Of a stretch of DNA of 38,427 nt, positions 2,378 to 21,136 are shown in pieces. How positions within the stretch are numbered: the first letter of the stretch is position 1; every line of letters begins with the position of its first letter. The stretch lies in NCBI GenBank assembly GCA_027451505.1, contig DAIDJD010000055.1:1-38427 (forward strand), in the 5' to 3' direction. Under the pieces are notes generated by a model. It had not been told where the DNA came from, ran no database searches, and saw only the letters and a list, made by a program, of their open reading frames with translations. Origin of the DNA: a candidate division FCPU426 bacterium (GTDB lineage Bacteria; Oederibacteriota; JAJYGY01; DAIDJD01). Made by a program: the position numbers and the translations under genes.

Positions 2378-2974
2378 TCAGGAGTGCGGGAGCGAGGCGT
2401 CGAAACCGGCCTGCAGCGCCCCCATCTCCGGCACGCTGACCTGGAGCATCCGCGCGGCCAGGCCCCGGTCGCCCCAGCATTCGGCCACCGCCTCGGCGAT
2501 CAGGGCCTTGCCGAAGCGGCCCGTGCGCTCCTCCAGGCTGCCGCCAGAGTCCATGCAGCGCTCCGCAGCCCAGGCGCCCCGCAGGGCCAGGGGAGCCTCC
2601 TCCTCGTTGCGCGCCCGCCTCCGGTTCGACACCCGCCGCAGGCGTTCCTTGAGCACCGCCACGTCGAAGGGCTTGGCCAGCACGTCCTCGGCGCCCAGGC
2701 CCAGCGCCTTGCGGGCCAGGCGCACGTCCGGGTCCCCGCACAGCATGATCACGGGCGGGGCCAGGCTTTCCGCGTCGAGCAGCCCCAGAAGGCCGGTCCC
2801 GTTGAGGCCGGCCATGTTCTGGTCCAGGATCATGGCGTCGGGCCGCACCAGGTACAGCTGGGCGAAGGCGTCCTCGGCCGAGGCCGCCGCGTTGACCGTG
2901 AATTCGTCCTCCAGGGCGAGCCGAAGGGCCTCGCGCACCTGCGGTTCGTCGTCCACCACCAAGACCCGGAACAT
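2378..2974 (-). CDS. Response regulator: receiver domain plus short Fis-like C-terminal helical region
   Basis: MFRVLVVDDEPQVREAL...MILDQNM...LAKPFD receiver; C-terminus FGKALIAEAVAECWGDRGLAARMLQVSVPEMGALQAGF resembles a divergent Fis HTH; no AAA+ domain between them. Confidence 0.85.
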   Translation of the reverse strand: MFRVLVVDDEPQVREALRLALEDEFTVNAAASAEDAFAQLYLVRPDAMILDQNMAGLNGTGLLGLLDAESLAPPVIMLCGDPDVRLARKALGLGAEDVLAKPFDVAVLKERLRRVSNRRRARNEEEAPLALRGAWAAERCMDSGGSLEERTGRFGKALIAEAVAECWGDRGLAARMLQVSVPEMGALQAGFDASLPHS

Positions 2975-2992
2975 GGCTCCCTCCTTGGCCGA

Positions 2993-5074
2993 TCAGGCCG
3001 TGGCGCGCTGGGGCCCGGACTCGGCCCAGGGCAGTCGCACGATGAATTCGGCGCCCCCACCGGGCGCGTTGGCGGCCTCGATCGAGCCGCCCAAGGATTC
3101 GACCACCCGTCGGCAGGTGGCCAGGCCCAGCCCGTGGCCGGTCTCTTTGGTGGTGAAGAAGGGCTCGAACAGGCGCGGCATGGCCTCGGAGGAGATGCCC
3201 GTGCCATGGTCCCGGACCCTCATCTCGGCCCAGCGGGTGCCCCGCAGCACGTCCACCCGCACGGCGGCGCCCTCGGGGCTGACCTCCAGGGCGTTGAGCA
3301 GCAGGTTCAGCAGGACCTGGGAGAGCCTCGTTTCGTCCCCCTTCACCATGAGGCCCTGGGGGCATTGGATCTCGAGCTGCACTTGGCGCTTGCGGAAGGG
3401 CTGGGCCACCAAGGCCCGCTCCCGGTCGCACAACTGGGCCAAGTCCACCACCCCCACGGCCAAGTTGGCCGGACGGGACAGGGCGCTCATGTCGTCGCAC
3501 ATCTGGGTCAGCTTTAGGATCTCCTGGTTCATGACCTGGCCGAACTTCTTGATGTATTCGGGGTCCTTGGCCCGGCCCGGCAGCATCTGCACGTACACGC
3601 TGATGGACGTCAGGGGATTGCGGATGTCGTGGGCCAGGCTGGCCGCCAGAAGGCCCAGGGTGCTCAGACGCTCGGCGTGCTGAACCTGGCCCTCCAGGGC
3701 GTTGGTTTCCACCATGCCCGCGAGTTGGGAGGCCAGGGCCGCGAGGAACTCCGCCTCATGCCCTGCCAGGGCCCGGCCCGACTTGGGTGGGCCCACGGCC
3801 AGGACCCCGCGCAGGGCGCCCCGGACCACCAGGGGAAAGCAGGCCTGGAATCCCGCCTCTTCCAGGAAGGCACGAGCGGCCTCCTCGCCCTCGTCCTTGG
3901 GGGGATCGCGCTCGTACATGCGGGTCCAGCCCAGGCTGTCCCTCTCCAGGCCCTGGGGGTTGGCCAGCAGGAGCCGGCCCAGAGGCCCGGCCGGGTCCAG
4001 GGGCGGATAGGGGCCGTCCTTGGGCCGGGCCGCGAAGACGCCCAGGGCGCTTCCCCTCTGGGTGAGGTAAAGGCAGGCCGAGGCTAGGCCGTGCTCGGCC
4101 ATCAGGCGCTCCAGGGTCGCCTCCATCAGGCCTTCGAAGGAGCGGTGGGTGTTCGACAGAAGGGAGTATTCCAGCAGCTTCTGCCTGAGGTTGAATTGCT
4201 GGCCCAGCCAGCGGCCGAGCAGGTGGCGGATGGCCCGGTGCTGGATGGGGTACACGAGCGCGAACAGGATCGCGGCGGTGAAAAGGGCCCCCATCCCTGG
4301 GGAAACGTTGAATATCTTGAATCCGCCCAAAATGGCCAGCGCAACGGTGAAGGTCAGCATCAGGCTGCTGAGGGCGGCCAAGGCGCCCTGGCGTAGGATG
4401 AGCGTCATGTCCAGGAGCCGCCGCCGGGAGAGGCCGTAGGCGGTGATGCCTACGTAGGCGAGGGGACCCAGGGGCATCAGGAAGCTGGCCTTGCGCAACA
4501 GCGCGGTGAGGCACAAAAGCAGCGCCAAGGCGGCGGACAACCAACAGATCATGAGGCTTTGCCGTTCGAGGGGCGAATCCGTCTTAACCCAGCGCCACAG
4601 CATCAATCCCAAGGCGCTTCCGAGCATAATGAGGGCCGTTGGCAGCAACAGGTAATAGTAGGGCAGCTCAGGACCCGGAAACCAGCCCTGTCCGACGCGA
4701 AATTCCATGGATGCCAAATGGTACCATCCCAGCAACCGTCCCACGACATCCGCCGCCGCAGGCAGGGCCATGACCCTTGGCAGCCAGAGGACCCAGGGCT
4801 TCCTGTCAAAGCGGCTGAAGACCCGCGCGAAATGGTAAAACGAAAAGATCAAAAGGTAGGGCAATACCATGCCGTAACGCATCCAATCGGACGCTGCGGC
4901 TCGCGTTTCAGCCTGCGCTAGGCCGACCAAAAAGGCTGTGTAGGCGCTGAAGCCGATGATCTGGAATGCAAAGGCCCTATGCAGGCGCAAGCGCGGATAG
5001 CGCCATATAATGTACAGCGCGATCAGCAGCGTGGTCGCCGTGCAGGCGAGAGCGATTAACCCCTGTGCATTCAC
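2993..5074 (-). CDS. Membrane sensor histidine kinase (7TM-type N-terminus, GAF-like middle, HisKA-HATPase)
   Basis: Multiple hydrophobic N-terminal segments; H-box SLAHDIRNPLTSI; ATPase boxes RDHGTGIS...FEPFFTTKETGHGLGL. GTG start with AGGTGA upstream, 7 bp after the methyltransferase stop. Confidence 0.92.
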   Translation of the reverse strand: MNAQGLIALACTATTLLIALYIIWRYPRLRLHRAFAFQIIGFSAYTAFLVGLAQAETRAAASDWMRYGMVLPYLLIFSFYHFARVFSRFDRKPWVLWLPRVMALPAAADVVGRLLGWYHLASMEFRVGQGWFPGPELPYYYLLLPTALIMLGSALGLMLWRWVKTDSPLERQSLMICWLSAALALLLCLTALLRKASFLMPLGPLAYVGITAYGLSRRRLLDMTLILRQGALAALSSLMLTFTVALAILGGFKIFNVSPGMGALFTAAILFALVYPIQHRAIRHLLGRWLGQQFNLRQKLLEYSLLSNTHRSFEGLMEATLERLMAEHGLASACLYLTQRGSALGVFAARPKDGPYPPLDPAGPLGRLLLANPQGLERDSLGWTRMYERDPPKDEGEEAARAFLEEAGFQACFPLVVRGALRGVLAVGPPKSGRALAGHEAEFLAALASQLAGMVETNALEGQVQHAERLSTLGLLAASLAHDIRNPLTSISVYVQMLPGRAKDPEYIKKFGQVMNQEILKLTQMCDDMSALSRPANLAVGVVDLAQLCDRERALVAQPFRKRQVQLEIQCPQGLMVKGDETRLSQVLLNLLLNALEVSPEGAAVRVDVLRGTRWAEMRVRDHGTGISSEAMPRLFEPFFTTKETGHGLGLATCRRVVESLGGSIEAANAPGGGAEFIVRLPWAESGPQRATA

Positions 5075-5081
5075 GGATCAC

Positions 5082-5933
5082 CTAATGAAACCCCACGTAT
5101 ATATGAAACAACGGAATACTAACATATTCAAGAGAAAAATCGCCGCTTTTTAGCGCATCGACGCCGTTACGGATACGTTCCCACTGCGTTACGGGAATAT
5201 TCTGGCCTCGTTTCGCCGCGTCGAGGTAATAGTCGGCGACCGGCAGAAAGACCTTGGAAAAGGCCGCAAGTAGGACCTTGGATTCCAGCGCGATTTCGCG
5301 CCTGCCGAGAACCACCAGACCAGCCTCGGAAGCCAACCCTTCGAGATCCCCGCCCAAATGGCGGTTTCCACCCTTGCGGATCTGGAGGGCCTGCATCAAA
5401 TCCAACAAATCAGAAAACCAAGGCGGACGGGGCGAGACCTCGATACGCCGGTCGTCCGTCTCCAACAGATGCAGGATCCCTCCTGGGCGTAGCCACAGGC
5501 CCGCCGCCTGGAGAGCCCGGACCGGATGGGAAATATGCATAAGCACTAGGCGGAGGCAGGCGGCATCGGCTGGCTCGAACCCCTCCGGAGGCCCCAACAC
5601 AAGGTCACGGCTGCCGAACCTCAAGTTGGGCCGGTCGCCAAAGATTTGCGACGCTTTGGCAACCGCGTCCGGATCAATATCAAACCCCCAGACCCGGACA
5701 TCGGATCGGACCCTGGCGACCGCGTCCGCGAGCACGCCCGACCCGGAACCCAAATCCACGAAGCGCCCGCCCTCCGGCAGGGTTCTCACGAGTTCCGGCA
5801 GTTCCTGGCCAAGGGTGATGAGGGCTTGCCGGCGCAGGCGTTCGGCCTCGTTCCCTCCAGCGCCAGCGATGGTGTAGGCGCGCGCCGCGTCATCATTCCC
5901 GGATTCCGGGCCGGAATCGGACCCTCGGCTCAC
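5082..5933 (-). CDS. Class I SAM-dependent methyltransferase
   Basis: GGRFVDLGSGSGVLADAVA motif I, VLMH...LRPGGILHLLE. I place the start at GTG complement(5931..5933), overlapping the ACP stop as GTGA; the longer ORF to 6017 would run into the ACP gene. Confidence 0.85.
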   Translation of the reverse strand: MSRGSDSGPESGNDDAARAYTIAGAGGNEAERLRRQALITLGQELPELVRTLPEGGRFVDLGSGSGVLADAVARVRSDVRVWGFDIDPDAVAKASQIFGDRPNLRFGSRDLVLGPPEGFEPADAACLRLVLMHISHPVRALQAAGLWLRPGGILHLLETDDRRIEVSPRPPWFSDLLDLMQALQIRKGGNRHLGGDLEGLASEAGLVVLGRREIALESKVLLAAFSKVFLPVADYYLDAAKRGQNIPVTQWERIRNGVDALKSGDFSLEYVSIPLFHIYVGFH

Positions 5934-6241
5934 GCGGAATGCCTTCCGGAATTCTGGACGGATGAGATCAGTGACCAAAGATGGGGAGCCAACTCCCCGA
6001 CAGTGGGAACTTCCCACAACAGCGTCGCAGGGACTTCGACGCCCAAACGGTCCTCCAAGGAACCCGCGAGCGCCACCGCGGAGAGTGAATCAAACCCCAA
6101 CTCCACAAAGGATGAATGCAATCCCACCTCGCTGGGGTGGAGGTTCCGGGCCAGCGCGACCATAGTTACCAGCCATTGCGCCAGTTCCTCGGCCGACTCG
6201 AAGCCGGGCCGCTTTGATGCCGGCTGCGGTCCCAAAACCAT
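5930..6241 (-). CDS. Stand-alone acyl/peptidyl carrier protein
   Basis: 103 aa; VELGFDSLSAVALAGSLEDRLGVEVPATLLWEVPTVGELAPHL: DSL phosphopantetheine attachment motif. ATG preceded by GGAGGAGG. Confidence 0.9.
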   Translation of the reverse strand: MVLGPQPASKRPGFESAEELAQWLVTMVALARNLHPSEVGLHSSFVELGFDSLSAVALAGSLEDRLGVEVPATLLWEVPTVGELAPHLWSLISSVQNSGRHSA

Positions 6242-6265: not shown

Positions 6266-7795
6266 TTATCCGACTTGGGCCCACGCATGGAACAGCGGTA
6301 CCCGTATTTTGCGCAGGGCCGACTTCTCAATTTTCAACTCTTCTACCAAAGATCGCAGCCGTCGCACAGCGCTTTCTTGGAAGATTCCGAGTTGCCGTGC
6401 CTCGTTGAGGTAGATTTCGCCAACCGGCAGGAACACCTTGGAAACCGCCGCCACCGCCACGCCCGGATCCAGGCTGTTCTCCCTCATACCCAGCAGATCC
6501 CAGCCACTGTTTCCCAGAAGAATCGGAAGATCCCTTCCCAGGCGTCGGCTTCCCCCTTTGAAGTTCTGGACGCGCTCCATCAGTTCCAGGAGTTCAGGGA
6601 TCCATTCAGGAAGGGGATCAAAGGCCAGGGCCCGGTCGTCGGGCTCCATGACATGCAGGATGCCGCCTGGCTTCATCCAACGCTTCACCTCCCGGAGCAG
6701 ACCGATCGGGTCGGGGCTATGCATAAGGACCAAATGCATGACGGCCGCATCGGCGCCGGAAAAGCCTTCGGGCGGCCCCTGCTCGATGCCGCGGCAGCCG
6801 AACCTAACGTTGGGTCTGCCTCCGAAAAGTTCCTTGGATTTTTCCACCGCCAGGGAGTCGCCGTCATATCGGTGGACCATGCCCTCTGGACGGGCAGCGG
6901 CCACCGCGTCCGCCATAACCCCGACGCCGCTGCCGAAGTCCACAAAGCATCCTGACGGCGGAAACGCGTCCAGGATGGTCGGTAGCTCCAGGGGCAGGAA
7001 CAAGGAATCCTGCATGCGGAGGCGTTCCGCCTCATGCTCCCCGACCTCGGAAAGCCACGCGCTTTGGGGCCGGACGCGGACCTCCACGGCCTGCGGCCGG
7101 GAACCCGCCGCCGGACCCCCGCGCCAAGTATACCGTGAAATGCGCGCCGGCGCTTTAGGCAGGGCCAAGCTGGCCGAGAGCCCCTCCTGCAACGCGAGTT
7201 CCTCCAACCAGACGCCTTGGACTTCCCGTTCCCTCAGCGCCGACAGGCCGGATATGCCCTGGCCCTTGAGCTTCAGCAGGGCCTCCTTGCGGGTCCAGAA
7301 TCGGTAGAAACAGCGCAGCCGTTCGACAGGGTCCGGAGCCGAATTCAAATGCGCCAGCTCGGTTGGATTAAAGTAGGACTGGGCGACGACCTGGAGATCG
7401 GCGAAGGGGCGCAGAACCTCCAAGTCCACCCCAATGGGGCCGTCGCTGATCCCCGCCAGCCACCAACCGTCGCTACTGCTTACCGAAAAGTGCAGGTCCG
7501 GATAGTCGGGAAGGAAGGGCTTCCCTTGCCCTTCCTTCCCGATGCGGATGTCGCGGGCCTCCACGTTCAAGATGTCCGCCAACAGCAGCCGGAGCGCAAC
7601 TTGCCGTCCCTCCCAGAGCCGACGCAGACGGGTTTCCCGGGGCACCGTGACCGCATGGAGCGTTTCAGGCGGCAACAATTCCGCGGCGAGGGCCGCCAAA
7701 GGCAGGATCCGACCCGGATCCAGCAGCCAGATCGCGATGTGATTTGAGTCCGTGCCGCTTTTCGGCTTCCGGTCCAGCAGTGGGCTCGAATTCAC
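6266..7795 (-). CDS. Fusion protein: Sfp-type 4'-phosphopantetheinyl transferase (N-terminal) + SAM methyltransferase (C-terminal)
   Basis: N-terminal half: GVDLEVLRPFADL...FYRFWTRKEALLKLKGQGI (PPTase). C-terminal half from about codon 245: CFVDFGSGVGVMADAVA...VLMHSPDP...MKPGGILHVMEPDDR, closely similar to the adjacent stand-alone methyltransferase. GTG start overlaps the NRPS stop (GTGA). Confidence 0.9.
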   Translation of the reverse strand: MNSSPLLDRKPKSGTDSNHIAIWLLDPGRILPLAALAAELLPPETLHAVTVPRETRLRRLWEGRQVALRLLLADILNVEARDIRIGKEGQGKPFLPDYPDLHFSVSSSDGWWLAGISDGPIGVDLEVLRPFADLQVVAQSYFNPTELAHLNSAPDPVERLRCFYRFWTRKEALLKLKGQGISGLSALREREVQGVWLEELALQEGLSASLALPKAPARISRYTWRGGPAAGSRPQAVEVRVRPQSAWLSEVGEHEAERLRMQDSLFLPLELPTILDAFPPSGCFVDFGSGVGVMADAVAAARPEGMVHRYDGDSLAVEKSKELFGGRPNVRFGCRGIEQGPPEGFSGADAAVMHLVLMHSPDPIGLLREVKRWMKPGGILHVMEPDDRALAFDPLPEWIPELLELMERVQNFKGGSRRLGRDLPILLGNSGWDLLGMRENSLDPGVAVAAVSKVFLPVGEIYLNEARQLGIFQESAVRRLRSLVEELKIEKSALRKIRVPLFHAWAQVG

Positions 7796-10700
7796 GCGGC
7801 CACCAACCCCTTCTCCGCGCCTTGGGCGAGGCCCTGGAGCAGGAATTCGGCGAGTCGCCGGACGTTTCCCTCAGCGAGGATGTTGTGGTGGTCCCCGGGG
7901 ATGAGCCGACAGGTCATGCCCGCGCGCGCCATGAGCGACCAAGCCATCCAAGAGCCGCGGGCCTCCTCGCGGGCCGTCCGCTCGCTGAGCGCGAGGCTTA
8001 CGGGCACGGCGATGGGACGCAATGCGTAACGGGCGGTCGCGCGCAGGTGGGCCATGTAGCGGCGGCGTTCCTCCTCGCTGATGTCCTCCAACGCCTCCCC
8101 GTTTCCGGTGCCGAGGTCCCGCCGCACAAGATCCTCAAGCGTGAAGGGATCATGCAAAGCGAGGGCCCGAGCGAGCGGGTCGGGAGCGTAGGCGTCCATC
8201 AGCAACAGGCGCGCCGTACGGCGGCCCCGAGCCGCCAAGGACCGACAAAGATCCGTGGCGAGGAGCCCGCCCATGGACCACCCGCCCAAAACCACATCCC
8301 CAGCGGGGAGGGCACTTTGAATGGCCTCTGCGCAGGCGTCCACCCACGCATCCCAGGCATCCTCCGCCGGAGCGGGTAGGGCACTCAAGTCAAGGCCCCA
8401 GACCTGGGCGCGACCCTCCAAGGCGCGCGCCAAGCCGAGGTAGGGCACCAAGCGGCCGCTGCTGGGAGGCAGCAGCACCCACGCCGGCCCGGGTCCCGGA
8501 GCCAGAAGTTTCAGCGCGGCGCGAGGTTCTCCGTGGCAGCCTCCGCGGGCGGAAAGGGCGCCGGCTAGGGCACGCGGATTAGGTGCGCGGTATATCTGTT
8601 CCACGGGCACGTCCAGACCCAGGCGGCGCCCAGCCTCCCCCGCCAACCGGACGGCCTGCAAAGACGAGCCTCCCAGGGCGAAGAAATCCTCGTCCGGCCC
8701 GACGGACCGCCCCAAAACCAATCCAAAAGCCTCACGAAGACGTTCCAAGGCCGGGCCGGATGGGGCGACCGGTTCAGGACTCTCCTGGACCGGCCCCGCG
8801 GGTGTGTCCGCGGCCGCAGCCTCAGGAAGGGATTGCGGGCGGCTTTCCGGTCGGCGTCCAACCAGTGCGGCCCGGTCGATCTTGCCGTTGGGCCCCAAGG
8901 GGAAGGAATCCAATACAGCGATTTCGGACGGGATGCAGGCCGAGTGGATGCGTTGAGCCAACCAATTCTTAAGTTCCGCGGCCTCCGGACGATGGCCCTG
9001 TTGGACCAGCACCCAAGCCTTCAGCCGCGACTCCGACGCCGTCGGGTCGGGCTCCACCACTGCTACGGCCACACCGTCGGCCCCAGCCAGGACGGATTCC
9101 ACCTCCCCAAGGTCCACCCGGACCCCGGAAACCTTCACTTCCCGGTCCATGCGGCCGAGGTGCACCAAAGTCCCGTCCTCGTCGATCCGCGCCATGTCAC
9201 CCGTTCGGTAGAATGCGCGGGAAGGGCCAAGGTCCGGGGAACCCGGGGCGAACCGGGCGCGGTCCAGATCGGCACCTGGGCGCAGGTAGCCATCGGCGAG
9301 GCATACCCCGGCGATCCACAGTTCGCCAGACCGGCCGCGCTTCACGCAACGGCCTTCTGGATCCACCACGGCCAGTTCGACGCCGCACAGCGCCTGGCCA
9401 AGAGGTATGGGTCCCCTCTCCGGGGTCTCAGACCCGCATTCGTAAAGGGTGACGCAGACACAGGCTTCCGTTGGGCCGTAGGCGTTGAAAAGCGCCACCC
9501 CGGGAAGGTGCCGCCTCCATTGCGCCACGAACTCCGGACCCGGCGCCTCGCCGCCGACCATAACCAAGCGTAGCCGCGGAGCGTTGGCCAGGTGCTTGGC
9601 CCCGTCGGCCTGCATGAAAGCATGCCAGTAGGCCGTGGGCAGCAGAAAGAGGCTCACCCCGTGGGTACGCACGAAGGCGCCCAATTCCGCCGCGCCCGGG
9701 GCTCCCCTCCTTTGGAGCAGGCAAAGGCAGGCCCCCGCCGCCAACGTGGGAGTGACGTCCTGGATGGAGGCGTCGAAACTGATGGATGAAAATTGCATCA
9801 CCCGATCCTGGTTTGCGAGGCCAAGCCGCGACTGGATCCCCAGAGCGTTGTTCAGCAGCGCCCGATGGCCTACCAAGACGCCCTTGGGTCGACCGGTCGA
9901 ACCTGAGGTAAAGATGAGGTAGGCCGGATCCTCTGGACGTGGCTGGCCGGCCCGGCGATGGTAGGGAAGTTTGCCCTTGAGCGCCTGCTCCAAGTCCATC
10001 CAGGGGCCCGCCCAACCGGAGGTCCAAGCGGGGCGCTTCTGGTCGGAAAGCACGACGCTGCAACCAGAGTCCTCGAGCATGCCCTTGAGGCGCTCCGGGG
10101 GATAGGCTGGATCCAAGGGCACATAAACGGCGCTGGCTTCAAAACAGCCAAGAAAGGCCGCGACCCAAGCCGGCGAGGCCGAGGAGCACACCCCCACCCT
10201 ATCCCCCGGTAGAACGCCCGCCTGGAAAAGCACCCCGGCCACGGCGTACACCTGGGACTCTAGGGTCCCATAGTCGACCTGGCCGTCTCGGAAGAGCAAG
10301 GCGGGCGCCTCCGGGGCGCGCCGGGCGTGGTCGTGGAACGCGTCCAGCACCGTCGCATGTCCGGTGGTCGGGGGTTCCGGACCTTGGAGCAGGGAAAGCG
10401 GCTCCTTGACGCCCCCCACCGCGTAACGGTGGCAGGCGCCGATGAAGGCCTCCAGACACCGCTGAGCGAATCTGGGGGCTACCCTTTCGGGAAGGTATTC
10501 CAGGCGGATGCGCCAGTCCCGGCCATTGACGACCTCAAGCCCCAAGGGCGCGATCGCGGTTTCGACGGGTTCGCTGTGAAACTCCGAGGGCATCCCGGCG
10601 AAGTGCGCAAGGCGCTGCTCGGGATCCTCACCATGATAGTTCAGCACCGCCGCCGGAACCGGAAGACCGACGGTGCGCATGGCCTGGGCCGCGCTGAGCC

Positions 10701-13446
10701 CTCGATGGGATAGGCTGGATTGAAGCGTGGCCCAGGCGCGAGCCAAGCGGCGGGGCAGGTCCATTCCCGGGTGGACCTCCAGACGCAGCGGCACCGGATG
10801 CACCCAGTAGCCCAAGGCGCTTTCCAAGGGGGGACGCTTCCGCAAGGTGGTTGGGATAAGGAAGCATGCCTCGCGGGTCCCCGAGGCCTCCGCCAATGCC
10901 TCAGCCCAGGCCACCGCAGCGACCGTGAATAGGGTGCACTTACCCCGGACCGCCAAGCGCTTGAGACTGTCGACCACAGCCGCCGGGATAGCCGCCTCGC
11001 GGGCCTCCGTTCGACCAGGGTCACCGTCCGAGGCGCTAGGCAGGAGCCATGGCTCCTGTTCCAGACCCCGCAATTGTTCGCCCCAATAGGCCCGCGAGGC
11101 CTCCACGCCTCCGGAGGCTTCCGGTATCGCGTCCTCGAATCCCGGTGCCGTGTCCAAAGGTGACTTCGGATCCGCCAAAAGCCGTTCTAGCCGGGTATAA
11201 AAGCGCTCCCCGGAGCCACGGTCAAAGATCAGGTGATGGAACACGAAGGCCAACGTGCTTCCGCCGTCGTTCAGGGGTAGGTAGGCCGCCCTCCACAACG
11301 GCCCCCGTTCCAGGCGGAACGGCGCGCGGCTCCACGAACGGATCCATTCCCGCGCCCGTCCGGGATCCAATGGATCGGGACCGGGCAGGTCCAGGGGCAC
11401 GATCGCGGGGCCGTCCTGCTGCCAAAGGCGGTCCTGTTCGTCGGCGATAAAACCGCAACGCAAAGCCAGCTCCAATTCGGCCAGCTTTTGCAGGGCCTGA
11501 CGTAGATTTTGGGGATCGAGGCAGCCCTTCAACTTTAAACTTTGGCAAAGATGGTAGGCCGTAGAAAGTGGGAAGGCCATCTGGAAGGCCCACAGGCTTT
11601 CCACGGCGACCGGGCAGCGCCGCCTCAGCCCCTGCTGGGTCCCTTCCGCTGGCGCAGGCTTGGGCTGTTCCGTGGGCGCGAAAGACGGCTTCGACCCGCT
11701 TCCCGGCGTGGAGGTTCCTTTGTAGGGAACCGGGCCCGGGGTTTCGGGCCAACGGAGCAGGACCTTGAGTTCCCCCTTGAGATAGGCCTCCCTGCAGGCC
11801 CTGCGCTGGATTTTGCCGCTGCTGGTCATGGGAATCCCGGGACGTCCGAGTAGGAGCAATTCCGCCAGGGCGATTCCGTGGGCCTGGTTGATCGCTGCGG
11901 CGATCCGACGGGCCGCCGCAGTCCGCTCTCCCGGAGGGCAGGAACCGACCTCCAGGGCCAGCACCACCCGCTCGCCATCAGAATCCTCCAGGGAAAAGGC
12001 GGCGGCCGCGCCCAATCCCGGGACAGCGTCCTGGGCGGTAGCTTCAAGATCTTCGGGGTGGTGGTTGACCCCACGCACGATGATGAGGTCCTTCAAGCGG
12101 CCGCTGATGACCAACTGGCCACCGTGGTAGAAACCCATGTCGCCGGTCCTCAGGAAACTTCCGGGATGGCCCTCGAGCTTGGCCCCGAAAGTGGCCGCGG
12201 TCTCCTCGGGTTTGTTCCAATAGCCCTTCGCGGTGCTGGGGCTTTGCACCCAAATCTCACCGGTTTCGCCGTCTCCGTTCGGCTTCAGACCAACAGGATC
12301 CACGATGACGACGGTGTGGAAACGGGTCGTACCGCAACCCACCAATATGTTTCCAGAATCGACCGGGGCCAGGACGCGTTTCACGGAGGGACCGGAACCG
12401 GAGATGTACAAAGTATTCTCCGCCATGCCATAGCACGGCTGGATCAAATCGGGACTCAAGCCATAGCGCGCATAAGCGGCTTCGAAACGGCGCATGGGCT
12501 CTTCGCGTACCGGTTCGGAACCGTTGCAACACCAACGCCAGTGGGAGAGGTCCAGGCCCAAACCCTCGGCCTCCGGCGCGCACCGGGCGCATAGATCAAA
12601 GGCGAAATTGGGTACAACAGAATGGGTGCCCCGATAATCGCTGAGGGCCTTGAGCCAAGCCAGGGGATGCTTCAGGAAGTCATTGGGTGCCATGTACACG
12701 CCGCTGCCCTGGCAATGCAAGGGAAAGAGCACTCCCAGCACTAGACCCAAGTCATGGAAGAAGGGGATCCACGACACCATGACGTCGTTGGGCCTGAAAT
12801 CCAGTTGGGGCGCCTGGGCCGCTAGGTTGTGGGCGACGTTGGCGTGGGTCACCATCACGCCCTTTGGCTTTCCCGTGGAGCCGGAGGTGTATTGCAAAAT
12901 AGCCACGTCACCGGGTTCGGGACGGTGCAGGGCCGCATCGGCAAGGGTAGGAAGCCGCTCCAGTTCCCCGGGCTCGGGCCAGCGCAGTCCGGCCCAGGCG
13001 CCACCACCGGCTCGGGCCATCTCGAGAGCCGAGCAGCCCACGGAATCGGCCAAGGCCAAGGCGCAGCCGGCGTCCTGGACGACGGAACTGACGCGGTCCC
13101 CGTGGCGGGTTTTACGCGGTGGATAGGTCGGTACGGCGATGCAGCCGGCGTAGAGGCAGCCGAAGAGGGCAGACACGAATTCGGGACCCGGGGCGTGGGC
13201 CAGGAGGACTCGGTCCCCGGGCCGCGCGTTGAGGCGCAGCCAAGCTGCTACAGCACGGGCCTCCCGATCCAGGGCGGCGAAGGTCCTGACCTCGGCCTCG
13301 GCTCCTCCGTTGCGCAGGTAAGTCAGGGCCACCGCTTCGGGGGTCTCCTGAACGCGACTCCACAGAAGCCCTGCTATCCCTAACGGCTGGACTTTCATGT
13401 TCAGGTTGGATTGCGTTGCGTTGAATGGATCGATGGTGTTAGGCAC
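7792..13446 (-). CDS. Single-module megasynthase: fatty acyl-AMP ligase - condensation - adenylation - PCP - thioesterase
   Basis: FAAL: LQYTSGSTGKPKGVMVTHANVAHN...CYGMAENT; C: HHLIFDRGS; A: YLIFTSGSTGRPKGVLVGH, NAYGPTE, YRTGD, NGKIDR; PCP: FALGGSSLQAV; TE: GGWSMGG, GDHHNIL. I prefer the GTG at complement(13444..13446), preceded by GGCAGGAGGG, over the listed ATG at 13506, which lies upstream of the putative promoter. Confidence 0.92.
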   Translation of the reverse strand: MPNTIDPFNATQSNLNMKVQPLGIAGLLWSRVQETPEAVALTYLRNGGAEAEVRTFAALDREARAVAAWLRLNARPGDRVLLAHAPGPEFVSALFGCLYAGCIAVPTYPPRKTRHGDRVSSVVQDAGCALALADSVGCSALEMARAGGGAWAGLRWPEPGELERLPTLADAALHRPEPGDVAILQYTSGSTGKPKGVMVTHANVAHNLAAQAPQLDFRPNDVMVSWIPFFHDLGLVLGVLFPLHCQGSGVYMAPNDFLKHPLAWLKALSDYRGTHSVVPNFAFDLCARCAPEAEGLGLDLSHWRWCCNGSEPVREEPMRRFEAAYARYGLSPDLIQPCYGMAENTLYISGSGPSVKRVLAPVDSGNILVGCGTTRFHTVVIVDPVGLKPNGDGETGEIWVQSPSTAKGYWNKPEETAATFGAKLEGHPGSFLRTGDMGFYHGGQLVISGRLKDLIIVRGVNHHPEDLEATAQDAVPGLGAAAAFSLEDSDGERVVLALEVGSCPPGERTAAARRIAAAINQAHGIALAELLLLGRPGIPMTSSGKIQRRACREAYLKGELKVLLRWPETPGPVPYKGTSTPGSGSKPSFAPTEQPKPAPAEGTQQGLRRRCPVAVESLWAFQMAFPLSTAYHLCQSLKLKGCLDPQNLRQALQKLAELELALRCGFIADEQDRLWQQDGPAIVPLDLPGPDPLDPGRAREWIRSWSRAPFRLERGPLWRAAYLPLNDGGSTLAFVFHHLIFDRGSGERFYTRLERLLADPKSPLDTAPGFEDAIPEASGGVEASRAYWGEQLRGLEQEPWLLPSASDGDPGRTEAREAAIPAAVVDSLKRLAVRGKCTLFTVAAVAWAEALAEASGTREACFLIPTTLRKRPPLESALGYWVHPVPLRLEVHPGMDLPRRLARAWATLQSSLSHRGLSAAQAMRTVGLPVPAAVLNYHGEDPEQRLAHFAGMPSEFHSEPVETAIAPLGLEVVNGRDWRIRLEYLPERVAPRFAQRCLEAFIGACHRYAVGGVKEPLSLLQGPEPPTTGHATVLDAFHDHARRAPEAPALLFRDGQVDYGTLESQVYAVAGVLFQAGVLPGDRVGVCSSASPAWVAAFLGCFEASAVYVPLDPAYPPERLKGMLEDSGCSVVLSDQKRPAWTSGWAGPWMDLEQALKGKLPYHRRAGQPRPEDPAYLIFTSGSTGRPKGVLVGHRALLNNALGIQSRLGLANQDRVMQFSSISFDASIQDVTPTLAAGACLCLLQRRGAPGAAELGAFVRTHGVSLFLLPTAYWHAFMQADGAKHLANAPRLRLVMVGGEAPGPEFVAQWRRHLPGVALFNAYGPTEACVCVTLYECGSETPERGPIPLGQALCGVELAVVDPEGRCVKRGRSGELWIAGVCLADGYLRPGADLDRARFAPGSPDLGPSRAFYRTGDMARIDEDGTLVHLGRMDREVKVSGVRVDLGEVESVLAGADGVAVAVVEPDPTASESRLKAWVLVQQGHRPEAAELKNWLAQRIHSACIPSEIAVLDSFPLGPNGKIDRAALVGRRPESRPQSLPEAAAADTPAGPVQESPEPVAPSGPALERLREAFGLVLGRSVGPDEDFFALGGSSLQAVRLAGEAGRRLGLDVPVEQIYRAPNPRALAGALSARGGCHGEPRAALKLLAPGPGPAWVLLPPSSGRLVPYLGLARALEGRAQVWGLDLSALPAPAEDAWDAWVDACAEAIQSALPAGDVVLGGWSMGGLLATDLCRSLAARGRRTARLLLMDAYAPDPLARALALHDPFTLEDLVRRDLGTGNGEALEDISEEERRRYMAHLRATARYALRPIAVPVSLALSERTAREEARGSWMAWSLMARAGMTCRLIPGDHHNILAEGNVRRLAEFLLQGLAQGAEKGLVAA

Positions 13447-13482
13447 GGTTCCCTCCTGCCGTTGGTTGCTTGAACCGTTTAA

Positions 13483-13500
13483 ATGCAAGGAGGATGCCAA
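13483..13500 (-). promoter_or_regulatory. Putative sigma-54 (-24/-12) promoter of the megasynthase operon
   Basis: Minus strand reads TTGGCATCCTCCTTGCAT: GG-N10-GC spacing, close to consensus YTGGCACGRNNNTTGCW; 36 bp upstream of the preferred GTG. Confidence 0.75.
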
Positions 13501-13592
13501 ACCCAAAAATAAGTTTTATGTCAGTAATGCAGGGGCTTTTCAGAGGTTTCTATTTTGGACCGACAGAAGAAATGAAACTTTTAAGGTGCAGC

Positions 13593-18248: not shown

Positions 18249-19481
18249 CTATTCCCGCAGCGTCGCCAGCGTGGTGCCTGGGTAGTAGAAATAAAGGATG
18301 GCCCGGTAGTCCCATCCGGCCCGGGCCTGGGCGAAGGCCCCCTCCTGGGAAAGGCCCACGCCGTGGCCCCAGCCCCGCCCGCGGAACTCCAGGATCCCGT
18401 CCCGGTCGGCGAGGCTGAAATGGGTGCTGCGCAGGCGATCCGGGCCGAGCGCCTCGCGGAAGGCGTTGGCCCCGACCTTGTGGGTCCTCCCCGAATCGTC
18501 CACCAGCACCAGGGTGCGCCAGCGTCCGTTCCAGGACCGCGCGCCCGGGCGCACGGCCCGCAGCCCGCCCTTGAGCAGCCCGGCGGCCCTCAACCGCTGG
18601 CCCGCCTCCTCCAGCGGCACGGACCACTTCCAACGGTAGTGCGGTCCACCCTCGCTCCAGGGGTCGTCGACGCCTCGCAGGTAGGGCGGGGTCGGCGCCC
18701 CGGAGCCCCAGACTTCCCCGGCGTTCGCCGTGGCTCCGCCGCTGTTGCTGTGGAAGTACGTGCGCGCCACCCGCCCCTTCCAGGCCAGCACCTGGCCGCG
18801 GGTCTCCCGGACGGCCCGGTCGGTGGCGGGGCGTTCGGCCTCCCGCGATCCGTAGACCTGGCTGTCGCTGCTGTCGTCGAGGTCCCAGGCCTTCCCCGCG
18901 GAACGGCCCAGTTCCCACACCGCGAAGCTCCGGGCCGCCACGGCCTGGGCCTCGAGCGCCTCCATGGGGCCGCGGGCCTCGACCTCGCGGGGAAGCACGC
19001 CGCGCAGGTAGTCCTCCAGGCCGACCACGTTCACCAGCGCCAGGCGCCCGGCCAGGGCCTCCAGAAGCAGCCCCCCGCGGTAGCGTCGTCCCTCCACCCG
19101 CACCGCTTCCCCGGGGCGCAGGGGCAGCACCCAGGCCCGGGACGCGTGCAGCCCCTCGCCGTTGAGGGCGATCTGGCCGCCCCGCGCCTCCAAGCCGGCC
19201 CGGGCCGTGGCCGGGAGTTCGGCCAACACGGTGCCGTCGGGCGCCTCAAGCTTGAGCCCGCCGGGAGCGGAGGCCCGCAGGCCGTCCGGCCCCATGCGCA
19301 GCAGCACGCGCAGGCGAAGCCCATCCAGCCGAAGCGGGGGCGGCCCGGCCTGGTCGCCGGAGCGGGATGGGCCCGGAGAGGCGCATCCCGCCGCCAGGGC
19401 CAGCGCGGCGGAGATTCCGGCGGCGGCGAGCGCCGCGAGCCCGGCTCGCCTGGCCCGGGCTCCGGAAGGGCCCGACGTCAA
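18249..19481 (-). CDS. SpoIID/LytB-domain protein, probable lipoprotein
   Basis: ALALAAGCASPG lipobox-like; VVGLEDYLRGVLPREVEARGPMEALEAQAVAARSFA; SNSGGATANAGEVWG; GRGWGHGVGLSQEGA. Confidence 0.9.
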   Translation of the reverse strand: MTSGPSGARARRAGLAALAAAGISAALALAAGCASPGPSRSGDQAGPPPLRLDGLRLRVLLRMGPDGLRASAPGGLKLEAPDGTVLAELPATARAGLEARGGQIALNGEGLHASRAWVLPLRPGEAVRVEGRRYRGGLLLEALAGRLALVNVVGLEDYLRGVLPREVEARGPMEALEAQAVAARSFAVWELGRSAGKAWDLDDSSDSQVYGSREAERPATDRAVRETRGQVLAWKGRVARTYFHSNSGGATANAGEVWGSGAPTPPYLRGVDDPWSEGGPHYRWKWSVPLEEAGQRLRAAGLLKGGLRAVRPGARSWNGRWRTLVLVDDSGRTHKVGANAFREALGPDRLRSTHFSLADRDGILEFRGRGWGHGVGLSQEGAFAQARAGWDYRAILYFYYPGTTLATLRE

Positions 19482-20335
19482 GCCAAGTCCAGCTCGAAGT
19501 GGTTCTCCGCGGTGCGCTTGAACCCGTGTTCGTCGAAGATGACCATGGCGATGCGCATGTTCAAGTCGGTGTCGGCCAGGACCTTGCGGTATCCCGCCTC
19601 GCGGGCCTGGCGCACCGCCTCGGCCACCAGGCTCTTGCCGATGCCGTTGCCGCGGTACTGCGGGGGCACGTAGAGCCTCTTGATCTCGCCCTGGCCCTCC
19701 TGGACCTTCTTCAGCCCCACCATGCCGGCGGCCTCGCCCTCGTAGGTGGCAAGCAGAAGGCGGCCCGCCTTGGCCGGGGAATAGGGCCCCGGCAGGTCGG
19801 CCATCTCGGCCTCGAAGTTCACGCCGCGGAACTCGTAGCCGCGCAATTGGGAGTACTCCTCGAAGAGCTGCCGCACCATGGCCACGTTCTCCGGGCTGAT
19901 GGCCTGGATCACGCGCACGGAACGGGCGTCCTCGTCGACGCGCTCGGTCACGCCCACCTTGGCGGTGGCCTCGATCTCGACGAGGATGTCCGGGTTGATG
20001 AAGCCCAGGACCTGGACGATGGTGGTGGCGGGCTTGATGCGCTCGAAGGCCTCGTGGTGGGCCCGGCCCACCGCCTCCCAGTCCTCGAGCCGCTTCAGGT
20101 ACACGCGGGTGTGGACCACGTCCTTGATGTCCGCGCCGGCCTTGAACAGCGCCCCCTGGATCCAGCTCAGGGCGCGGCGGGCTTGGCTGTAGGCGTCGCC
20201 TTTGGCCACGGCCGCGGCCGCGTCGTCGAGCCCGGCCGTGGCCGAGACGTGCACGGTGGTCCCGACCCGGACGGCGCGGGAATAGGCCAGCTTCTCCTCC
20301 CAGGGGGAGCCGGTGTTCACGTTTTTGCGGCGCAT
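19478..20335 (-). CDS. Fusion: RidA-like (YjgF/UK114) domain + GNAT N-acetyltransferase
   Basis: N-terminal MRRKNVNTGSPWEEKLAYSRAVRVG...ILVEIEATAKVGV (Rid family); C-terminal IKRLYVPPQYRGNGIGKSLVAEAVRQAREAGY (GNAT). Confidence 0.88.
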   Translation of the reverse strand: MRRKNVNTGSPWEEKLAYSRAVRVGTTVHVSATAGLDDAAAAVAKGDAYSQARRALSWIQGALFKAGADIKDVVHTRVYLKRLEDWEAVGRAHHEAFERIKPATTIVQVLGFINPDILVEIEATAKVGVTERVDEDARSVRVIQAISPENVAMVRQLFEEYSQLRGYEFRGVNFEAEMADLPGPYSPAKAGRLLLATYEGEAAGMVGLKKVQEGQGEIKRLYVPPQYRGNGIGKSLVAEAVRQAREAGYRKVLADTDLNMRIAMVIFDEHGFKRTAENHFELDLA

Positions 20336-20435
20336 GGTTTCCTCAAGACAAGGGCGGGACGCGGGTTGCGATGGGAAGGCTCCATTGAAGCACAATCCCG
20401 CCGCCCCTTCCATAGGGCGCGGGACTCGGGCGCGC

Positions 20436-20960
20436 TCAGGGGCGGTAGCGGTAGGAGCGCCCCTCGCCGGGACGGAAGCCCCGGAGGAAGCCGCCCCCGT
20501 ACCCGATGGCGTTGAGCTTGAACGCCAGGAGGCGCAAGAACAAGGGCCCCGCGACCAGGGTCCCCTCTTCGTGCTCCCGGGCCAGCTGCACCAGCCGCAC
20601 CCCGGTTTCGACCACCCGACGGCGGACCTCCTCGGCCGGCTCCGCGGCTGGCGCGGGGTGGGCCATCCAGCGCAGAAGGCGCCAGGCCTCCGGTCCCCGG
20701 GACGGACCCAAGTCCGGCTCGGCATAGAGGCGCTTGACCTCGAGACGGCGGTCGGGATACAGGCGGCGGGCCGTGGCCAGGGCCTCGGGCTGGGGGCCGC
20801 ACAGCACGGTGGCGCCGGGCCCGTGCAGGGGCTCCAGCCGCCGCTCATTCCCGGCGGCGCACTGGCACCGCAGGGACAAGCTGGAGGCCCGCAGCGGGGC
20901 GGCCGGGGCCGGGGTTGGGGCGCCGGATGGGACGGTCGAAACGGCTTCAGGGGTTTCCAT
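20436..20960 (-). CDS. Hypothetical protein, possibly a degenerate histidine-phosphatase-like domain
   Basis: ATVLCGPQPEALATARRLYPDRRLEVKRLYAEPDLG resembles the family's S-P-xx-R-A-xx-TA segment; no intact RHG motif. Confidence 0.5.
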   Translation of the reverse strand: METPEAVSTVPSGAPTPAPAAPLRASSLSLRCQCAAGNERRLEPLHGPGATVLCGPQPEALATARRLYPDRRLEVKRLYAEPDLGPSRGPEAWRLLRWMAHPAPAAEPAEEVRRRVVETGVRLVQLAREHEEGTLVAGPLFLRLLAFKLNAIGYGGGFLRGFRPGEGRSYRYRP

Positions 20961-21136
20961 GGCCGCGCATTATACCCGCTCCGCTTGGACCTTGCATCCC
21001 AGGCGGCTTTGGGACTACCATGGCAAAGGTTGGGCAAGGCCTTGGGACACACGGGTTTTTCGGCACCGTATTCCTGAGCCACGCCGCCTTAGGACGGCGC
21101 GGGATCCCCACCAAACTTCCTTGGACGAGGTGGAGC

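Follow-up and report, generated by a model that had tools for sequence, protein, structure and literature searches.

Sfp-type (group II) phosphopantetheinyl transferases (PPTases) such as Sfp, HetI and PcpS have a two-subdomain fold of about 220 residues, a Mg-binding Asp-Glu-Glu set with a catalytic Lys, and an (F)N-x-SHS motif, the conserved His of which is widespread in the family without being universal; in Sfp, this His90 touches CoA. In integrated PPTases, the PPTase is translationally fused within a FAS or PKS, and its partner is the synthase that is being modified (PMC4117218). Lipid tails can be introduced by FAAL:ACP:C initiation, in which a FAAL, a free-standing ACP and a condensation domain come together, as in the case of the daptomycin proteins DptE/DptF, and a parallel has been described in the mycobacterial Pks13, whose ACP takes its fatty acid from the FAAL FadD32 (PMC9113097).

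The window analysed here, a stretch of 38,427 nucleotides (contig DAIDJD010000055.1) from a candidate division FCPU426 bacterium, contains an operon in which a PPTase is fused to a methyltransferase.

The fused frame and its two domains

The fusion is a single frame of 509 codons at 6266-7795, with a GTG start at 7795 and a TAA stop at 6266. The uninterrupted frame and its coordinates had been given correctly in the initial annotation, which left the strand unstated; it is the minus strand, read from 7795 to 6266, and the plus strand contains stop codons over the same region. Also the assignment of the frame to an Sfp-type PPTase joined to a class I methyltransferase is borne out by Pfam and phmmer, and the presence of both domains in frame is far beyond chance.

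The PPTase domain comprises residues 1-226 (7118-7795, minus strand; fold at 18-226), as delimited by Pfam, phmmer, AlphaFold2, Foldseek and alignment. The Pfam model ACPS (PF01648) matches residues 120-193 above its gathering cut-off (E 1.4e-12), phmmer aligns residues 66-182 with Sfp (1qr0, E 1.1e-18), Foldseek matches the model to Sfp (4mrt, E 2.6e-14), and among NCBIfam families HetI and AcpT are nearest, below their equivalog cut-offs. AlphaFold2 predicts residues 21-220 with a pLDDT of about 77-96 and lets the final PPTase strand end at residue 224, and this model has the two subdomains of the Sfp type in about 220 residues. In an alignment with 30 unfused PPTases, taken from the phylum of the window and from two others, all 30 end 0-54 residues past the equivalent of residue 226, and all 30 share G91-K92-P93, G122, D124, E126, E171 and K175 with the fusion, which thus retains the Asp-Glu-Glu set (D124, E126, E171) and the catalytic Lys (K175). 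Fold, length up to about residue 226, and the GKP, GxDxE and KE-K motifs are the same as in Sfp, HetI and PcpS, whereas the fusion has a C-terminal methyltransferase and a Ser in place of the SHS His. This S107 is found at the position of His90 of Sfp, where the relatives have His (28/30), Ser (one) or Arg (one), and three residues before it the fusion has S104, where 27 of the 30 relatives have Asn. As the SHS His is not invariant in the family, fold and catalytic residues still justify the classification as Sfp-type, but the exchanges may lower the PPTase activity or change the CoA binding, and with a Ser at the His90 position the activity is not assured.

The PPTase is followed by a linker of about 24 residues that is rich in Gly, Pro, Ala and Arg (residues 227-250; 7046-7117, minus strand), delimited by the pLDDT and by the ends of the unfused PPTases. 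The pLDDT falls below 50 at residues 229-232 and 242-253, and a helix begins at residue 254. The methyltransferase domain extends from residue 251 to 509 and the stop codon (6266-7045, minus strand) and was recognized by Pfam, phmmer and its paralogue. Methyltransf_12, _23 and _11 match residues 271-394, all above gathering cut-offs (best E 3.4e-10), phmmer finds 3mgg (E 3.6e-12), and motif I, VDFGSGVGV, has the acidic-GxGxG pattern of the Rossmann-like fold. AlphaFold2 models this half weakly, which is due to a shallow alignment, and with a pTM of 0.53 for the fusion the arrangement of the domains is unreliable. Judged by homology and model, the protein is composed of two complete domains, a PPTase and a methyltransferase, joined by the linker.

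Within its genome, the fusion has a single further match, a standalone class I methyltransferase, MT2 (5082-5933, minus strand), which was identified by BLASTP, model and Foldseek. With 43-45% identity to the fused methyltransferase (BLASTP 43%, 4e-69), the duplication is not recent. The predicted structure of MT2 (pLDDT 86.8) matches 3mgg (5e-20), RebM, TleD and others, and the structural neighbours of the fusion and MT2 models together include RebM, TleD, AtmM, OxaG and MitM, natural-product methyltransferases that act on free small molecules. The fold is the same as in such class I enzymes (3mgg, RebM, TleD, OxaG), at about 20% identity and with no assignment to a particular family. The two methyltransferase regions, both on the minus strand, flank the ACP gene, and it is possible that the two enzymes form a heterodimer or carry out successive methylations.

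The operon and its counterpart in the same order

The operon encodes, in this order, a FAAL-C-A-PCP-TE synthetase, the PPTase-methyltransferase as second gene, an ACP, MT2, a sensor kinase and a response regulator, all on the minus strand and either overlapping or separated by short gaps. The initial annotation, which was correct as to the two fused domains, had taken no account of the MT2 paralogue, the ACP next to the fusion, the FAAL-NRPS context or the change in the PPTase motif. The synthetase (7792-13506, minus strand; Pfam, NCBIfam and motifs) consists of FAAL (about 41-589), condensation (638-941), adenylation (1057-1542), PCP (1588-1651) and thioesterase (1678-1889) domains, contains the motifs HHLIFD, GGSSLQ and GWSMGG, and may really start downstream of the TTG; no carrier domain follows its FAAL, and its stop codon shares four bases (GTGA) with the GTG start of the fusion. 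The free-standing ACP (5930-6241, minus strand; PF00550, E 1.8e-16) has the phosphopantetheine site GFDSLS, matches the N-terminal ACP of Pks13, and is preceded by the Shine-Dalgarno sequence GGAGGAGG; its stop is overlapped by the GTG start of MT2. The operon ends with the membrane sensor histidine kinase (GAF, HisKA, HATPase; 2993-5074, minus strand) and the receiver-domain response regulator (2378-2974, minus strand; PF00072, E 2.4e-22), after which two PilT-type ATPases are encoded. Elsewhere in the window, at 19478-21082 on the minus strand, another two-domain frame combines a RidA-like (Ribonuc_L-PSP) domain with a GNAT acetyltransferase (534 aa).

Like in the daptomycin system, the FAAL, a separate ACP and C-A-PCP-TE are thus found in one operon, and the combination is that of FAAL:ACP:C initiation; in contrast to DptE/DptF (PMC9113097), the FAAL here forms one protein with a single NRPS module, and the PPTase-methyltransferase, the ACP and the second methyltransferase are placed between synthetase and sensor kinase. 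Such an operon is predicted to make an N-acyl amino acid, which may be methylated. The binding pocket of the adenylation domain, read by eye as D-A-Q-L-M-G-A-V-C-K, hints with low confidence at a hydrophobic residue, aromatic or otherwise.

Only one further genome of the order was in the comparison (G001, about 24% of which is missing). It has a syntenic locus with the order NRPS-PPTase-kinase, in which the PPTase is unfused and of normal length and no ACP or methyltransferase is present. The kinase that follows it has 25% identity to that of the window (3e-24), and within the phylum the sensor region is matched in these two genomes only. Both members of the order thus have a sensor kinase in their NRPS operon (window 2378-5074, minus strand; G001 locus L061, 4743-5999), which suggests that the product or the pathway is sensed. 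As the PPTase at the syntenic locus is unfused, the ancestral state was probably unfused as well, and the ACP and the methyltransferases were probably gained in the lineage of the window; alternatively, ACP and methyltransferase were lost in the relative.

Occurrence of PPTase-methyltransferase fusions

The arrangement had been called unusual, and this agrees with searches of more than 500 genomes, plasmids, phages and GTDB patterns, in which no second fusion was found. Searches with the full protein gave none in the phylum itself (45 genomes) and none in two other phyla of 40 and 291 genomes, where PPTases were matched and the sensitivity was thus adequate for the PPTase half; a further phylum of 133 genomes and one of four gave no match at the threshold, which by itself is uninformative. 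Among 72,556 plasmid records 132 were matched, none over 80% of the query, and a protein search of 50,697 phage records found no fusion. Two pattern scans of GTDB contigs, which pick up mainly close relatives, gave no match and two distant free methyltransferases, respectively. No methyltransferase match was found in the flanks (at most about 1.5 kb) of the 30 PPTase loci, and long frames beside PPTases at three loci (L004, L008, L009), which at first sight resembled fusions, are read-through of high-G+C frames. Also the open-access literature, to which the survey was confined, yielded no such fusion. The rarity is bounded by the sample searched here. The integrated PPTases (PMC4117218) are likewise translational fusions, but there the partner is the modified synthase, whereas here it is a methyltransferase and there is no carrier in cis: within the 509 residues, Pfam and NCBIfam recognize neither a carrier nor a synthase domain.

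Interpretation of the fusion and phosphopantetheine supply

It is rather likely that the frame is a genuine in-frame fusion of neighbouring genes in a small FAAL-type NRPS (lipo-amino-acid) operon, in which the PPTase primes ACP and PCP and the methyltransferases tailor an N-acyl amino acid. With CoA as donor, the PPTase half would attach phosphopantetheine to both the free-standing ACP and the PCP; the holo-ACP would then receive a fatty acid from the FAAL, the C domain would couple this acid to a single amino acid bound to the PCP, the TE would release the N-acyl amino acid, and the fused methyltransferase and MT2 would methylate this product or an intermediate. The fusion would have originated when a methyltransferase gene came to lie directly behind the PPTase gene, by insertion or duplication, and its start was lost; the fusion would tie two operon products together, and it is probably unneeded for either reaction.

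An artefact of assembly or sequencing, in which a miscalled stop or a compensated indel merges separate genes of the PPTase and the methyltransferase (MT1), is unlikely. The fusion is known from one draft assembly (2.36 Mb, 252 contigs, 89.6% complete), the PPTase of the relative is unfused, and there is a precedent in the apparent FAAL-ACP fusion lptEF of A54145, which corresponds to separate genes in related clusters (PMC9113097), but the linker contains no start for a separate methyltransferase that is preceded by a Shine-Dalgarno sequence, including the in-frame GTG at residue 237. Codon-position G+C has the same phase on both sides of the junction, so that no frame change is evident there, and second-position G+C is higher within the linker, as its Gly/Pro/Ala/Arg-rich composition would give. 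Moreover, the EAERLR region at the N-terminus of the methyltransferase is intact and the PPTase is complete, whereas a frameshift would often truncate a domain. Codon phase and start-site pattern thus favour a real fusion, without replacing reads. Within the PPTase, the in-frame codon TTG at residue 202 is preceded by a GGAGG at a distance of eight bases, and the methyltransferase half may therefore be translated separately.

If the fusion is real, its halves could be coupled in function, in that the PPTase half would dock the methyltransferase on the ACP or PCP, where it would modify an acyl or aminoacyl group bound to the carrier. The genes of fusion, ACP and second methyltransferase adjoin in one operon, and Sfp-type PPTases bind carrier proteins (4mrt complex), but the sister enzyme MT2 has no PPTase, the structural neighbours include small-molecule tailoring enzymes, and the low-confidence linker and unreliable domain arrangement give such docking no support, which makes this reading rather improbable. 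The carrier-bound substrate proposed in the initial annotation is thus unsupported, and so is its proposal that dosage must be matched, as the GTGA-type start/stop overlaps in the operon can already couple expression. Still less probable is a degeneration of one half, by which the protein would be mainly a methyltransferase with a PPTase that lost normal CoA binding, or the reverse: S107 and S104 replace widely conserved residues, and the fused methyltransferase has a Gly where MT2 has an Asp after motif II, but all Mg-binding and catalytic residues of the PPTase and the SAM GxGxG motif are kept, and the assembly, which does encode carriers, yielded no further PPTase. A genuine fusion of neighbouring genes, rare but mechanistically ordinary and found in a single assembly, is most likely.

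Outside the operon, the assembly encodes a free ACP next to FabF and, in a different cluster, two further carrier proteins. With the ACPS model, no second PPTase was found in this assembly, whereas the model hits at least once in each of the phylum's 25 good genomes, and the hit is usually a short AcpS. The relative has two Sfp-type copies, the second of which (L099 on its contig C18, 1-765, minus strand) is cut by the contig end, and no AcpS match. In several relatives, AcpS usually adjoins NnrD; no AcpS is encoded at the NnrD locus of the fusion's assembly, and in the same-order relative the contig starts too close to NnrD for such a neighbour to show. As about 10% and 24% of the two genomes are missing, these absences are suggestive of a loss of AcpS in the order. 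The more far-reaching idea, that the fusion is the sole PPTase after this loss, primes both fatty-acid synthesis and the lipopeptide operon with an altered CoA pocket, and carries a tailoring methyltransferase for a product read by the co-transcribed kinase, is improbable.

If there is indeed no other PPTase here, nor an AcpS in the nearest relative, which the incomplete assemblies allow to be said only conditionally, the fusion would be essential for fatty-acid synthesis. Apart from those within synthases, few PPTase fusions are documented. The present one is a ready test case for two questions: whether a PPTase retains its action in trans on carriers after fusion, and whether attachment to a PPTase is of advantage to a tailoring enzyme.
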